Source of the DNA: an uncultured Acidobacteriota bacterium
GTDB taxonomy: Bacteria; Acidobacteriota; Thermoanaerobaculia; Multivoradales; SZUA-115
Assembly (NCBI GenBank): GCA_937867335.1
Contig: CALMKX010000194.1
Coordinates: forward strand, 1-64,000
Length of the DNA: 64,000 bases
Direction of reading: 5' to 3'
A model generated the notes under the pieces. It was not told the origin of the DNA, searched no databases, and saw only the letters and a program-made list of their open reading frames with translations. Position 1 is the first letter of the stretch; the number at the start of each line of letters is the position of its first letter. A program made the translations under genes and the position numbers. Below, piece by piece: positions 6,760-40,074 of the stretch.

Positions 6760-7047
6760 ATGCGACGTGGCTTGGTGATGGTGCTTTCGGTGCTGCTTCT
6801 ATCGACGGTCGTGGCCGCTCCGCTGGCGGCGGCGCCGGTCCGCACGGAGGAGACCGTCGGCCATACGGCCGGATTCTCCGCGTTCTGGCTTTGGTTCGAC
6901 GAGATCGTCGGCAATCCGTGGCGGATCCTCGAGAAGTGGGGCTCGCAAGCCGATCCGAACGGCAGGCGCGCAGCAGCGCCGGTGGATCCCACCTCGTCGA
7001 GCACGGGCTTGAGTAGCGGAACGGAGGTGACCCAGCTGCTGGATTGA
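6760..7047 (+). CDS. Small secreted protein (locus 1)
   Basis: A 95-residue protein of unknown family. ATG 6760 follows an excellent GAGGAGG site. Residues 1-25 form a signal peptide (MRRGLVMVLSVLLLS, cleavage after PLAAA). The mature part has a short aromatic segment (FWLWFDEIVGNPWRILEKWG) and then a Ser/Thr/Pro/Gly-rich tail ending SSGTEVTQLLD. The layout matches the small secreted protein of locus 2 (39575-39913): RR-bearing signal peptide, short hydrophobic/aromatic core, and low-complexity tail. Like that gene it lies directly upstream, on the same strand, of a zinc-finger-type TPR gene. Function unknown; a secreted signal or envelope peptide is speculation. Confidence 0.7.
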   Translation: MRRGLVMVLSVLLLSTVVAAPLAAAPVRTEETVGHTAGFSAFWLWFDEIVGNPWRILEKWGSQADPNGRRAAAPVDPTSSSTGLSSGTEVTQLLD

Positions 7048-7137
7048 GGCGACGGGGCCTCGATCGCCGAGGTTCTCGGGCAGCCCGGAGATTCGCGGCG
7101 CATTTGTTCCTGGTGTGCTCCCAAAATGTCGGGCCGT

Positions 7138-7151
7138 GCACTAGACTAGTG
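7138..7151 (+). promoter_or_regulatory. Palindrome before TPR gene (shared GCACTAG)
   Basis: CACTAG-A-CTAGTG (7139-7151) is a perfect 6+1+6 inverted repeat. It starts inside GCACTAG (7138-7144), which ends 35 nt before the ATG at 7180. TAGACT inside it could also serve as a -10 hexamer. The equivalent place in locus 2 (39498-39513) has another palindrome containing GCACTAG, 34 nt before the start of the sigma-like gene. Confidence 0.4.
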
Positions 7152-7179
7152 GTGCAAAACCCCAAAAGGCGGAGGGGAA

Positions 7180-8502
7180 ATGGCGCGCCACTTGACCCGC
7201 GACCAGATGGAAAAGTTGCTGACCGGAACCTGCGAAGGTCATCCGGAAGCGACTTTGCTGCTCGAGCACCTGAAAGAGGCCTGCGCCACCTGCCGAGCGC
7301 TGGCGGAGGAGATCGAGCAGGAAAAGGCTCAGCCGCGGAGTCTGGACCAGGTCATGGAGGAGGCGGCGAGTGTGGCGCGGCGCCATCTGAGCCTGATGAC
7401 GCGGCTCAAGGGCGTGGCCGCCAGCGAGCTCAAGGAGCTCTTGAAACTCGAGCCGGAGAAGCGTCGGCTGCGCATCGGCCGGTCGAATACCCGATTCAAG
7501 AACCCGATTCTGGTGGAGCTTCTGATCGAGGAAAGCCGGCGCCGCCTCCGCGAGGACCCCTTCGCCGCCTACGAGTTGGGCGAATGCGCCTGCGAGGTCG
7601 CTCTCCGAGTGCCCCACAACGACGTGGGGCGCGGCCTCGCCATGACCTGCCTCGCCCGCGCCAACGCCCACCGCGGCAACTCGCTCCGGGTGATCGGCGA
7701 GCTGCGAAGGGCCGAGTCCCTGCTCACCTTCGCTCTCGAGATGTTTCTCGCCGAGGGCAACGGCGACCCCTTGGTGGAAGCCGAGCTGATGACGCTCTGG
7801 GCTTCGCTGCGACGGGACCAGCGGCGCTTCGGCGACGCGCGAGAGAACCTCAGCCACGCCCGCCAGCTCTACGAGGCCTGCGATGAAGGCTCGATGGTGG
7901 GCAGCGTGCTGATCCAAGAAGCCGTGCTGCTGTTCGAAGAGGGTCAGCCGGAGAGCGCGATCAGCGCCGTCCAGCAGGCCTTCTCCTGGCTCGACCCGGA
8001 GCGGGACGCCCGCTTGTACCTCATCGCCCGCCACAACCTGGTGGATTACCTCCAGGAGGCCGGCCGGCATGCCGAAGTGCGCCAGGAGCTCGAACGGCTC
8101 GAGCCGCTCTACCAGGCCGAAGGAGACCCTCTTCTTCTTCTGCGACGCACCTGGATCTCCGGGCGAATCGCTCGCGGCCTGGGCCAATGGCGTGAAGCCG
8201 AGGAGATCTTCCACCAGGTGCGGTCGGAGTTCGTTTCCCGAGGGATGGGGCTGGACGCCGCCGCGGTCGGGCTGGATCTCGCTCTGCTCTTCGTGGACCA
8301 GGGAAGAGCGACCGAGGTGAAGCGGTTGGCCGAGGAGACGGTACCGATTTTCCTGGCCCAGGACGTCCAGAGAGAAGCCGCGGCAGCTTTGCTGTTGTTC
8401 CAGGAGGCCGCCCGCCGAGAGGTGGTGACCCGCGCGATGCTCGCCGAACTGATCACCTACCTGCGTCGCGTTCGCCCCCGCCGAGCCGAGCAAGGGGAGT
8501 AG
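7180..8502 (+). CDS. TPR protein with Cys-pair N-terminus (locus 1)
   Basis: A 440-residue protein, probably cytoplasmic (no signal peptide). The N-terminus has HLKEACATC, close to the HxxxCxxC zinc finger of anti-sigma factors but with one extra residue. From about residue 95 it is helical repeats of TPR type, with typical LRRAESLL, RFGDARENL, QPESAISAVQQA and WREAEEIFHQV units. The C-terminal part (RGMGLDAAAVGLDLALLFVDQG, then VPIFLAQDVQREAAAALLLF) aligns without gaps to the locus 2 protein at 37783-39162, so the two are paralogues. ATG follows GGCGGAGGGG. A role as sensor or anti-sigma factor is inference; no sigma gene lies beside this copy. Confidence 0.75.
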   Translation: MARHLTRDQMEKLLTGTCEGHPEATLLLEHLKEACATCRALAEEIEQEKAQPRSLDQVMEEAASVARRHLSLMTRLKGVAASELKELLKLEPEKRRLRIGRSNTRFKNPILVELLIEESRRRLREDPFAAYELGECACEVALRVPHNDVGRGLAMTCLARANAHRGNSLRVIGELRRAESLLTFALEMFLAEGNGDPLVEAELMTLWASLRRDQRRFGDARENLSHARQLYEACDEGSMVGSVLIQEAVLLFEEGQPESAISAVQQAFSWLDPERDARLYLIARHNLVDYLQEAGRHAEVRQELERLEPLYQAEGDPLLLLRRTWISGRIARGLGQWREAEEIFHQVRSEFVSRGMGLDAAAVGLDLALLFVDQGRATEVKRLAEETVPIFLAQDVQREAAAALLLFQEAARREVVTRAMLAELITYLRRVRPRRAEQGE

Positions 8503-37782: not shown

Positions 37783-39162
37783 CTAGGAGGCGTTCTGAGC
37801 CGGCCGGAACTGCATCTCCGGATGGTTCCGCGCCTCGCGCAGGTAGGAGGCCACGTCGTTGACCAGCTGCAGCGTCGCGCGCTCGGCGATGGCCGCGCTC
37901 TCGAACACCATGAGGGCTGCGGTCGCCTCGCGATGGACGTCGCGGGAGCGGAAGATCGGGTACATCTCCTCGGCCAGCTGCTTGAGCTCGCGAATCCGGC
38001 CTTGTTGGGCGTAGACCCCGGCCAGGTCCAGCGAGACCTGGGCCGCGTCGTAGGCGATACCGCGATCGGCGAAGTTCTCCCGCAACCGCTGGAAGATCTT
38101 CTCCGCGGTGTCGAGCTGGTTCATTTCCTGGGCGATCTGACCTTCGATCCAGCTGGTCCGCCACTGATCGAGCTCGGTGCCGCTCTCGGCAGCCTGCTTG
38201 CGCAGCTCGGGAAGGAGCTTGAACGCGTCTGCCCGCCGGCCAGCGAGCCGCAGGCACTCCGCCAGGATGCTGAGCGTGCAGTAGACCAGGCGAGGCTCCT
38301 TGCTGGCGTCGATCAGCCCCTTGGCCTCCTCGAGCATCCGGATGCCCTCTTCGGGAGCGCCGCTTTCCTGGGCGATCTTCGCCCGTACCAGAAGCGTGCG
38401 ACCCACCCAGTGGTCCTCGCCCGCGTCGCGGTAGATTCCGAGCGCCTGATCCAGCAACTGAGCTGCTTCGTCGTAGCGCCGCTGCTCGCTGCGCAGGGAG
38501 CCCTTCAAGGTGAGCAGGCGGGCGCGCAGAAGAATGTCGTCCGTGCCCTCGGCGAGGAAAGCCTCGGCGTGCTGGAAGGCTTCCTCGGCGCTACGCAGGT
38601 CGGTGCCTACCCGGCGCGCATTGCCGATGAACGCCCAGGCTCGGGCGCGCAAGTCGTTGACCAGCGCCGGGCCGTAATGGCTGCCCTCGAGCTGCTCGGC
38701 CACGATCAAGCCGAGCTGGGCGAGGTCTTCCGCGCGAGCCGGGTCGGCCCCGGCCGCGGTCTGGCTCTGCTCGAGCAGGTACTCGCCGAAAACGTAGTTC
38801 TTGAACCGCCAGGTCCGCTCGATCAGAGAGCGCTGGCGGCTCACCGGGTGGCGCATCAGCTCCGCGAATAGCCGCGGAGCGCGGGCCCGGTCGCGGTCGC
38901 GCGCTTCACCGCGGACCTCGAGCGCGCTCTGGCCAAAAGAGAAAGCGCGGTCGTAGCTCGGGCTCTCGACGAGCTCCTGGGGTTGGAGTCCACCGAAGAG
39001 GTTGGTGACCAGGTCGCTGCCGGGAGGTGCGAGCCGTTCGACTTCCTTGCGGCAGGTGGCGCAGTTGTAAAGGTGCCAGGAGACCTTGATGTTCTCGCGG
39101 CGATTCAGTTTGCCGCGGGCGAACTTCTCCAGCAGCTTGTCATCGGGGTGAGTCTTGGGCAT
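37783..39162 (-). CDS. Zinc-finger TPR protein, putative anti-sigma (locus 2)
   Basis: A 459-residue protein with no signal peptide. Residues ~8-40 form a ZAS/zf-HC2-type finger (KLLEKFARGKLNRRE, then HLYNCATC, an exact HxxxCxxC), as in zinc anti-sigma factors. From about 160 on it is TPR repeats (DLRSAEEAFQHAEAFLAEG, RRYDEAAQLLDQALGIY, LDTAEKIFQRLRENF). The ending RELKQLAEEMYPIFRSRDVHREATAALMVF matches the locus 1 paralogue gap-free. No membrane helix is visible. ATG lies 3 nt after the stop of the sigma-like gene, whose 3' end carries the GGAGGGAGGA ribosome site, so the two are coupled. Anti-sigma function is inference from finger, order and coupling. Confidence 0.78.
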   Translation of the reverse strand: MPKTHPDDKLLEKFARGKLNRRENIKVSWHLYNCATCRKEVERLAPPGSDLVTNLFGGLQPQELVESPSYDRAFSFGQSALEVRGEARDRDRARAPRLFAELMRHPVSRQRSLIERTWRFKNYVFGEYLLEQSQTAAGADPARAEDLAQLGLIVAEQLEGSHYGPALVNDLRARAWAFIGNARRVGTDLRSAEEAFQHAEAFLAEGTDDILLRARLLTLKGSLRSEQRRYDEAAQLLDQALGIYRDAGEDHWVGRTLLVRAKIAQESGAPEEGIRMLEEAKGLIDASKEPRLVYCTLSILAECLRLAGRRADAFKLLPELRKQAAESGTELDQWRTSWIEGQIAQEMNQLDTAEKIFQRLRENFADRGIAYDAAQVSLDLAGVYAQQGRIRELKQLAEEMYPIFRSRDVHREATAALMVFESAAIAERATLQLVNDVASYLREARNHPEMQFRPAQNAS

Positions 39163-39165
39163 CAG

Positions 39166-39468
39166 TCAGTTCCTCCCTCCAGCTTCGCCGGTCTCCGGCT
39201 GGAAAGTGCGGCTCACCGCCTCCGCAACGGCACGCCGGCGGGCGACCCAATACAGGCGGCATTTCCTTCGGGCCTTGGATATTAGAAGAGATTCGGCTCT
39301 TTGGTCGCTGGGAGCCTGATAAAGCCATTCGACGATGCTTGCCTCGAGAAGGACATCAGCTTGACTGGGAGGAATCCTATAACGCCTAAGGATTTCCTCC
39401 AACAGCACTCGTGACTCTTTAAAAGAGTTTAGAGTCTGCGAAAAGTCTTGCTGTGTGGTGGCCTGCAT
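39166..39468 (-). CDS. Mini sigma-like protein (ECF region 2-like)
   Basis: A 100-residue protein. LLEEILRRYRIPPSQADVLLEASIVEWLYQ and then AESLLISKARRKCRLYWVARRRAVAEAV follow the spacing of ECF sigma region 2 in Acidobacteria (D-L-L-x-x-x...WL...ar.kC..YWr.RRR), but the match is divergent and region 4 is missing. ATG 39468 was chosen; a TTG one codon earlier is possible, and neither has a ribosome site. CATAAT lies 8 nt upstream, which would suit a leaderless transcript. G+C is conspicuously low (around 39270-39470) compared with flanking genes. It is coupled to the zinc-finger TPR gene, the classic sigma/anti-sigma order. Confidence 0.5.
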   Translation of the reverse strand: MQATTQQDFSQTLNSFKESRVLLEEILRRYRIPPSQADVLLEASIVEWLYQAPSDQRAESLLISKARRKCRLYWVARRRAVAEAVSRTFQPETGEAGGRN

Positions 39469-39497
39469 CAAGCGGTATTATGCACACTTGAGGCCTA

Positions 39498-39513
39498 AGA
39501 CGCTAGTGCGTCT
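39498..39513 (-). promoter_or_regulatory. Palindrome upstream of sigma-like gene (shared GCACTAG)
   Basis: AGACGC-TAGT-GCGTCT is a perfect 6-bp inverted repeat with 4-nt centre. On the transcribed (minus) strand it contains GCACTAG, ending 34 nt before the ATG at 39468. Locus 1 has GCACTAG in a palindrome 35 nt before its TPR gene. It could be an operator or a core promoter (TAGCGT as -10). Confidence 0.4.
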
Positions 39514-39528
39514 ATCAAGGAGTGAAGA

Positions 39529-39565
39529 ATCAAGGGGGTGCTCCCCGAACAAGCACCCCCTTGAT
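39529..39565 (-). terminator. Strong hairpin terminator/attenuator
   Basis: ATCAAGGGGGTGCT (39529-39542) and AGCACCCCCTTGAT (39552-39565) form a perfect 14-bp stem with a 9-nt loop. It begins 10 nt after the stop of the small secreted gene and lies before the sigma-like gene. On the minus strand it is followed by T-rich TCTTCACTCC. It should end or attenuate the small-gene transcript and separate its level from the sigma/TPR pair. Confidence 0.75.
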
Positions 39566-39574
39566 ATTTGCTAG

Positions 39575-39913
39575 CTAGGGCCTACCGTCAGGGTTGGAGC
39601 TGGTACCGGTTCCGCCACCGGAACTGGTGCTGCCCGTTCCGCCGGTGTTCGTGGTTCCATCCTGCAATACAACTGCATCGTGCGGAAGGCGTGATGAACT
39701 CGTGTCGCCAGTGACGAATCTGCTTAGGGCATTTTGCCAGAAGCCCTCAACTCCCGCAAGGATATCTACGAGAAGATCATCAAATGCTGCCACTACCTGA
39801 GTTCCGTGTGTCGACGGCGTGGGCCGCTCCGCCCAGGCGGTGCCGGGGAGGATAGAAGCGAGTGCAAGCAAGAGCAGAGTGGTTCGAGCTGAGCTTCTTC
39901 GGCTACGGCGCAT
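39575..39913 (-). CDS. Small secreted protein (locus 2)
   Basis: A 112-residue protein of unknown family. Signal peptide with a basic start ([20 protein letters not shown], cleavage after AWA), then a short amphipathic segment (AFDDLLVDILAGVEGFWQNAL) and a Gly/Ser/Thr-rich tail (GGTGSTSSGGGTGTSSNPDG). ATG 39913 has AAAGGAG at good spacing. It has the same layout and the same position relative to a TPR gene as the small protein at 6760-7047. The terminator directly behind it and hairpins in its leader suggest separate control. Role unknown; an exported signal or cell-surface peptide is speculative. Confidence 0.68.
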   Translation of the reverse strand: MRRSRRSSARTTLLLLALASILPGTAWAERPTPSTHGTQVVAAFDDLLVDILAGVEGFWQNALSRFVTGDTSSSRLPHDAVVLQDGTTNTGGTGSTSSGGGTGTSSNPDGRP

Positions 39914-39937: not shown

Positions 39938-39972
39938 AGCCGTGGCACGGCTCGCCGCGCGCTAGCGAGCCG
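39938..39972 (-). promoter_or_regulatory. Two mutually exclusive leader hairpins
   Basis: CGGCTCGC (39948-39955) pairs with GCGAGCCG (39965-39972), 8 bp. Alternatively AGCCGT and ACGGCT within 39938-39952 pair as a 6-bp stem with a 3-nt loop, using some of the same bases. Both lie 11 nt or more before the AAAGGAG site of the small secreted gene, so an RNA switch or dyad operator is possible. Confidence 0.4.
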
Positions 39973-40074
39973 ACGCTAGCCTCTAGTTGCAGCAACAAGG
40001 AGAAATCGGGACAACTTTATCGGCAGGGCCAGGAAACTAAGCCAGAACTACAGAGGGGGATTAGGAAGGGTGTT

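Follow-up and report, generated by a model that had tools for sequence, protein, structure and literature searches.

A gene cassette of the class Thermoanaerobaculia (Acidobacteriota), which pairs a small protein predicted to be exported with a TPR protein predicted to be cytoplasmic, looks like an undescribed cell-signalling system. We hypothesize, with a probability of roughly 0.45, that it is a class-specific, autoregulated peptide-signalling switch, of which the locus flagged here is one copy. That the module is real and conserved is practically beyond doubt, judging from the gene neighbourhoods compared below, and on the same comparison its constant pair is the mini-protein and the TPR protein. 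Among open-licence papers, to which our literature search was limited, we found no description of such a module.

Organization of the flagged locus

The window, that is, the whole 64,000-nucleotide stretch of DNA that was analysed, comes from the 5.56-Mb genome of an uncultured Acidobacteriota bacterium, itself a member of the class Thermoanaerobaculia. It contains the following features:

6760 to 7047, plus strand: second mini-protein of the window, predicted to be exported, tag QADPNG
7180 to 8502, plus strand: second TPR protein of the family, without a sigma gene, 37% identity to the first
37783 to 39162, minus strand: TPR gene, 459 aa, predicted cytoplasmic, N-terminal ChrR-like region
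39052 to 39075, minus strand: HxxxCxxC finger of the TPR protein (H30-LYN-C34-AT-C37), read from the sequence
39166 to 39468, minus strand: sigma-like ORF, 100 aa from ATG, apparently a truncated ECF sigma with region 2 only
39170 to 39180, minus strand: ribosome-binding site of the TPR gene, GGAGGGAGGAA, inside the sigma-like gene, read from the sequence
39529 to 39565, minus strand: hairpin between the mini-protein and sigma-like genes, perfect 15-bp stem, 7-nt loop, candidate attenuator
39575 to 39913, minus strand: mini-protein gene, 112 aa, signal-peptide-like start (predicted export), C-terminal SSNPDGRP, a degenerate DPxG tag
39948 to 39972, minus strand: 9-bp hairpin in the 5' leader of the mini-protein mRNA
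39984 to 40014, minus strand: probable ECF-type promoter, TTGTCCCG-N16-GCAACTA, 101 nt 5' of the mini-protein start

An earlier, sequence-only reading of this DNA had described a small secreted protein, a hairpin, a sigma-like protein and a TPR protein in order of transcription, and we confirmed all of these parts, on the minus strand and at the positions it had given them. The gap of 3 nt between the sigma-like and TPR genes and the placing of the TPR ribosome site within the sigma-like gene were likewise as described. The hairpin, which had been called a perfect 14-bp terminator, does have a perfect stem, but of 15 bp; it folds better than 200 of 200 shuffles (z -3.3), and since no U-run follows it we regard it as terminator-like rather than as a textbook terminator. 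The sole Rfam match is a tRNA-Ala beside the flagged locus. The pair at 6760 to 8502 (plus strand) lies directly after the ATP synthase operon and has neither a sigma gene nor an ECF-type promoter.

Conservation and distribution of the cassette

The order exported mini-protein, hairpin, sigma-like gene and TPR gene recurs in relatives across the taxonomic order, and a single genome from a second order of the class has the cassette as well. Among the TPR loci, which come from several genomes and are paralogues rather than independent draws, 95 of 133 non-redundant genes have an upstream mini-protein with a signal peptide (called by a simple rule, not by SignalP), compared with 3 of 154 control genes, all from the flagged genome, under the same rules; when the mini-protein is also required to contain [DN]PxG, the counts are 74 of 133 and 0 of 154. 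The conserved neighbourhood of small gene, sigma gene and TPR gene for which the sequence-only reading had proposed a search was therefore found.

About 20 paralogous TPR genes are present in the flagged genome, and in several families of the order a genome holds at least 20, on a scoring that was capped near 23 per genome; many of these paralogues are without any sigma gene. At a threshold of E 1e-30 the TPR family was found in 7 of 297 genomes drawn across the phylum, all belonging to Thermoanaerobaculia, to which, from this sampling, it appears to be confined. Where matches to the sigma carry a name, it is in most cases that of a Thermoanaerobaculia or Acidobacteria MAG. At one locus in another order of the class (L252) the sigma gene comes first, the TPR gene second and the mini-protein gene last, and the tag repeated in that mini-protein is a different one, AKIxPPIG, so that in this one case the association survives a change of gene order. 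Also in another order, two near-identical small proteins, predicted to be exported, lie in tandem 3' of a finger-TPR gene (L254, 2866-3328).

The mini-protein and its tag

The mini-proteins carry a C-terminal decapeptide with the consensus [EDK]-x-G-[SPGA]-x-[IML]-D-P-[ND]-G, the last copy of which ends a median of 2 residues from the C-terminus. Two or more copies are found in 28 of 101 mini-proteins, and the tag often stands in 2-4 tandem copies. Precursor length has a median of 97 aa, and a Trp-rich amphipathic stretch is frequent; the mature parts average 2.2 Trp, with short W-rich stretches in several. This amphipathic helix varies freely, and the short C-terminal tag is kept and multiplied. 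In a pair of orthologues from two species (L147 and L159), the four tag copies are near-identical in protein and differ in their synonymous codons, and the tag unit has changed in concert between the species (EAGSGMDPDG in one, DGGAGMDPDG in the other); tandem tags with synonymous differences are the signature expected of a multi-copy peptide precursor. For the mini-protein dN/dS was below 1 in the pairs tested, the TPR protein being under stronger constraint.

Similarity between the tags of paralogues correlated positively with similarity between their TPR proteins in all five genomes tested (r 0.19-0.43), significantly so in one genome only (G007, p 0.0005). That the tag is the signal bound by the TPR protein is a proposal to which we give slightly less than even odds. 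Searches of Pfam, NCBIfam, PADLOC and PHROGs returned nothing useful for either the flagged mini-protein or the 100-aa ORF. Two weak PADLOC matches, at E about 0.008, were at chance level, and a defence-system reading was dropped for want of any match.

The sigma-like gene is reduced to region 2

By sequence profile, the 100-aa protein is a sigma region 2. It has no Pfam match by itself; however, a profile of intact ECF sigmas that was built without the window protein matches it over region 2 with E 3e-17. As a query it retrieves two full-length sigma factors from its own genome, both on contig C340 (33% and 30% identity), and dozens from the genomes of relatives. The intact relatives are about 175-190 aa long and have regions 2 and 4 (PF04542, PF08281; sigma70-ECF E 7e-23), whereas the window ORF stops after region 2. 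A Foldseek search with a model of the protein (pLDDT 82) gave 5uxx as its best sigma match, which was not significant (TM 0.48, E 8.9). The comparison of 39166-39468 with ECF region 2 that had been proposed thus succeeded at the level of the sequence profile, and the structure search found no significant sigma match. Not supported in the form given was the idea of a sigma domain without region 4: the usual partner is a full ECF sigma, of which the flagged protein is, on these alignments, a truncated derivative or remnant.

Fifty-five TPR genes have an upstream sigma-like ORF, a full ECF sigma in 42 and a region-2 fragment in 13 (the flagged locus and 12 others). The 13 fragments cover roughly profile positions 7-75 (to 98 in the flagged locus) and come from four families, which shows that reduction to region 2 recurs. 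At L061, the orthologous locus of a different genus within the family, the sigma-like ORF is equally long and is truncated in the same way. In nearly all measured loci of relatives with an intact sigma gene, the TPR gene overlaps it by 1-17 nt. Between the flagged locus and its orthologue, identity is 31% for the sigma-like gene and 57% for the TPR protein, and the differences in the former are spread nearly evenly over the codon positions (0.52/0.50/0.66). Residues of region 2.2 are altered in the flagged ORF, and since region 4 is absent the fragment cannot itself read a -35 element. Given the degenerate tag, SSNPDG, and the fast evolution of the sigma-like gene, the flagged copy may be decaying.

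The TPR protein and its partners

The N-terminus of the TPR protein matches the ChrR anti-sigma model (NCBIfam TIGR02451) with E 2e-5 and 24.5 bits, below the cut-off of 124.5. AlphaFold predicts a confident superhelix for the protein (mean pLDDT 85), and the best PDB matches of this model are peptide-binding TPRs in LGN/Pins complexes, the best bacterial ones being Rap pheromone receptors (4gyo, Rap with CSF: E 2e-5, TM 0.54/0.67). Eukaryotic LGN scores slightly above Rap, and TPR superhelices bind many things. The predicted fold resembles the peptide-binding kind, as the sequence-only reading had supposed. That reading had also pointed to an anti-sigma finger at the N-terminus. The HxxxCxxC motif is indeed present here (H30, C34, C37), but it occurs in 17 of 138 TPRs, and its cysteines have been lost in the nearest orthologue of the flagged locus (HLYNSAASR, in G002), so that a zinc anti-sigma finger is not a defining part of the family.

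Several sigma-less TPR genes adjoin a convergent HTH gene of one small family, which is a third kind of TPR partner. Xre-type HTH genes stand convergent with sigma-less, finger-less TPR genes at L039, L043, L045, L046 and L050, and in the flagged genome at least 4 of the 6 matches to the HTH family adjoin TPRs of this type.

A probable ECF-type promoter precedes the mini-protein gene

An unsupervised count of spaced words 5' of the mini-proteins found TGTCC...GCAC in 6 of a set of 10 loci, most of them of the sigma type and with one locus entered twice among the ten, compared with at most 3 in shuffles. The aligned sites read TTGTCmCG-N15/16-GCAACTA, or TGTCmCG-N16-GCAACTA in short form. A match lies 86-106 nt before the mini-protein start codon in 15 of 27 sigma loci, the remaining 12 of 27 having none, and in 0 of 193 control genes, most of the matches outside the flagged family being members of the training set. 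The independent evidence consists of the unsupervised dyad count, a regular-expression count (7 of 27 loci; shuffles: mean 0.45, maximum 3) and the window site itself. With a model trained on relatives outside the flagged family, the flagged site ranks first in 128 kb, scoring 22.1 against 14.9 for the next, and a scan of all 5.56 Mb of the genome finds the strict pattern at a single place, exactly the flagged locus. This ranking and uniqueness make it very probable that an ECF-type promoter serves the flagged mini-protein gene, even though the sigma of the same locus is without the region that reads the -35 element, and control of the mini-protein by an ECF sigma seems to us likely.

Upstream of sigma-less copies an ECF-type promoter was found in 1 of 61 cases, which indicates that these are not simply co-regulated with the flagged locus. 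Two intact ECF sigma genes lie in tandem after metK on contig C340 of the same genome (L010, 6578-7866), without a TPR or mini-protein gene; no promoter of the ECF-type was found at this pair, the members of which are candidates to read the promoter at 40014. In another genome the ECF-type promoter is present in two divergent copies (G010, C5:58607-58707), which lie between the cassette and an apparent sensor-kinase-type gene, an arrangement that suggests a shared regulon in that family. Strong hairpins recur 8-20 nt after the mini-protein stop, followed in several loci by T-runs (L147, L159, L162, L166); a recurrent hairpin at this place would give much precursor and little regulator.

A proposed switch and its alternatives

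In the switch that we propose, the ECF-type promoter would drive a precursor exported by the Sec pathway, from which the C-terminal DPxG decapeptide, often present in tandem, would be released, and the hairpin after the precursor gene would lower expression of the sigma and TPR genes downstream. After uptake, the peptide would bind the cytoplasmic TPR protein and so alter the activity of the translationally coupled partner, presumably by TPR-sigma contact where, as in most relatives having a partner gene of this kind, the partner is an ECF sigma. At the flagged copy, whose region-2 fragment cannot read promoters, an intact ECF sigma would read the promoter in trans, and the fragment may serve as an adaptor or sigma mimic. 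Oligopeptide-binding proteins (PF00496) are found in 39 of 40 relatives and are not enriched with the TPRs (1-2 in several TPR-rich genomes, 8 in TPR-less genomes); since they are not commoner in TPR-rich genomes, these counts give no sign of a dedicated importer.

That three unrelated genes lie together by chance is ruled out, to within a negligible probability, by the class-wide conservation, the association with the mini-protein, the sigma-TPR pairs and the promoter results. A less distant alternative, which we think rather less likely than the switch, is that the mini-proteins are themselves exported effectors, whether envelope or matrix peptides or antimicrobial ones, that bear the Trp-rich amphipathic helix. 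The sigma and TPR proteins would then do no more than adjust how much of them is made in response to another, internal signal. Promoter and operon order do place the mini-protein under sigma control, its tryptophan content would suit such a role, and a tag shared across the class might serve for sorting or for binding to a surface; but it is the helix that varies and the tag that is kept and multiplied, receptor-like paralogue pairs are numerous, and the cassette contains no processing or sorting gene. Less probable still is a feedback coupled to export, in which the TPR protein binds unexported precursor and sigma activity reports the secretion status or backlog of the same cell, with no signal passing between cells. 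The cytoplasmic TPR protein, the single operon, the absence of a membrane sensor or importer from the cassette and the unexpanded peptide importers (PF00496) would all fit, as would autoregulation by ECF sigmas, which is typical of such loops, yet why the C-terminal tag, rather than signal peptide or helix, should be conserved and in tandem is left unexplained.

A further alternative concerns the flagged copy only and is compatible with any of these: the copy would be a decaying paralogue in which the sigma-like ORF is a functionless pseudogene remnant and only the mini-protein and TPR protein matter. We consider this quite possible, if somewhat short of an even chance. The loss of region 4, the altered region 2.2 residues, the nearly even codon-position differences and the many paralogues without a sigma gene agree with it; on the other hand, 13 TPR genes from four families have beside them an open frame for a region-2 fragment of much the same extent, and the flagged copy retains the best promoter in the window.

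If the peptide-signalling switch is real, Bacillota are not alone in having peptide pheromones that are read by cytoplasmic TPR receptors, and ECF sigma factors can be outputs of peptide signals. We tentatively extend the hypothesis, the odds being somewhat against it, to a diderm phylum with a large peptide-pheromone system of its own, distinct from RRNPPA, in which Sec-exported precursors would yield tandem DPxG decapeptides and class-specific TPR receptors would act via ECF sigmas, region-2 mimics or HTH partners; many genomes would then have from 15 to over 20 private channels. For soil Acidobacteriota, which are hard to culture and socially little understood, the cassette would offer a testable communication code, with a decapeptide that can be synthesized, a receptor that has been named and a promoter that has been defined. 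A separate question, raised by the repeated trimming of sigmas beside regulators, is what region 2 can do without region 4.

Comparison with known systems

The closest parallel in working is RRNPPA quorum sensing of Bacillota, with Rap-Phr, PlcR, NprR and AimR (PMC9765709, PMC12700828), in which precursors with multiple pheromone copies are known (PMC11343458) and for which PMC7425212 gives over 25 pairs per genome in some Paenibacillus. The cassette shares with it a precursor, predicted to be exported, adjoining a cytoplasmic TPR regulator, many pairs per genome and a similar TPR superhelix. It differs in belonging to Acidobacteriota, in its partners (an ECF sigma, a sigma fragment or a separate, convergent HTH gene), in its conserved DPxG decapeptide and in a TPR N-terminus that is ChrR-like rather than an HTH or Rap bundle; sequence homology beyond the TPR there is none. 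The likeness to RRNPP drawn in the sequence-only reading therefore holds for the adjacent exported propeptide and the Rap-like superhelix and fails for the N-terminal domain, and for the latter reason we do not file the cassette as RRNPPA, though it would be RRNPPA-like in its working. ECF42 sigma factors, with a C-terminal TPR extension fused to the sigma (PMC8999054), are alike in that an ECF sigma works with a TPR module; in the cassette, by contrast, the TPR protein is encoded apart from the sigma, brings an N-terminal domain of its own and is accompanied by a mini-protein.

With ZAS anti-sigma factors such as RsrA and ChrR, the cassette has in common the translational coupling of a sigma to a downstream regulator, an ECF-type promoter before the operon and, in some of its TPRs, HxxxCxxC and a ChrR-like N-terminus. 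Unlike them, its regulator is mainly a large TPR domain, in most cases (all but the 17 of 138 noted above) without the finger, and a precursor gene, predicted to be for export, leads the operon. In the PhyR-NepR-EcfG partner switch, PhyR has a receiver domain and both sigma-like domains. The point of likeness is that a fragment which resembles a sigma factor without being one could, by mimicry, set a genuine sigma free; in the cassette, however, the fragment is region 2 alone and its binding is putative.

Leader hairpins

Hairpins near -45 to -60 in the leaders are mildly enriched, being present in 73 of 90 loci compared with 60.6 in shuffles, and GG[CT][CT]ATGG occurs in 9 of 90 leaders compared with 0.6. 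Control at the level of RNA is a possible reading of these leader sequences. At L166, L170, L171, L147 and others, leader hairpins of the type GGCCATGGAGGCC, whose loop contains an AUG, lie about 45-55 nt before the mini-protein start.
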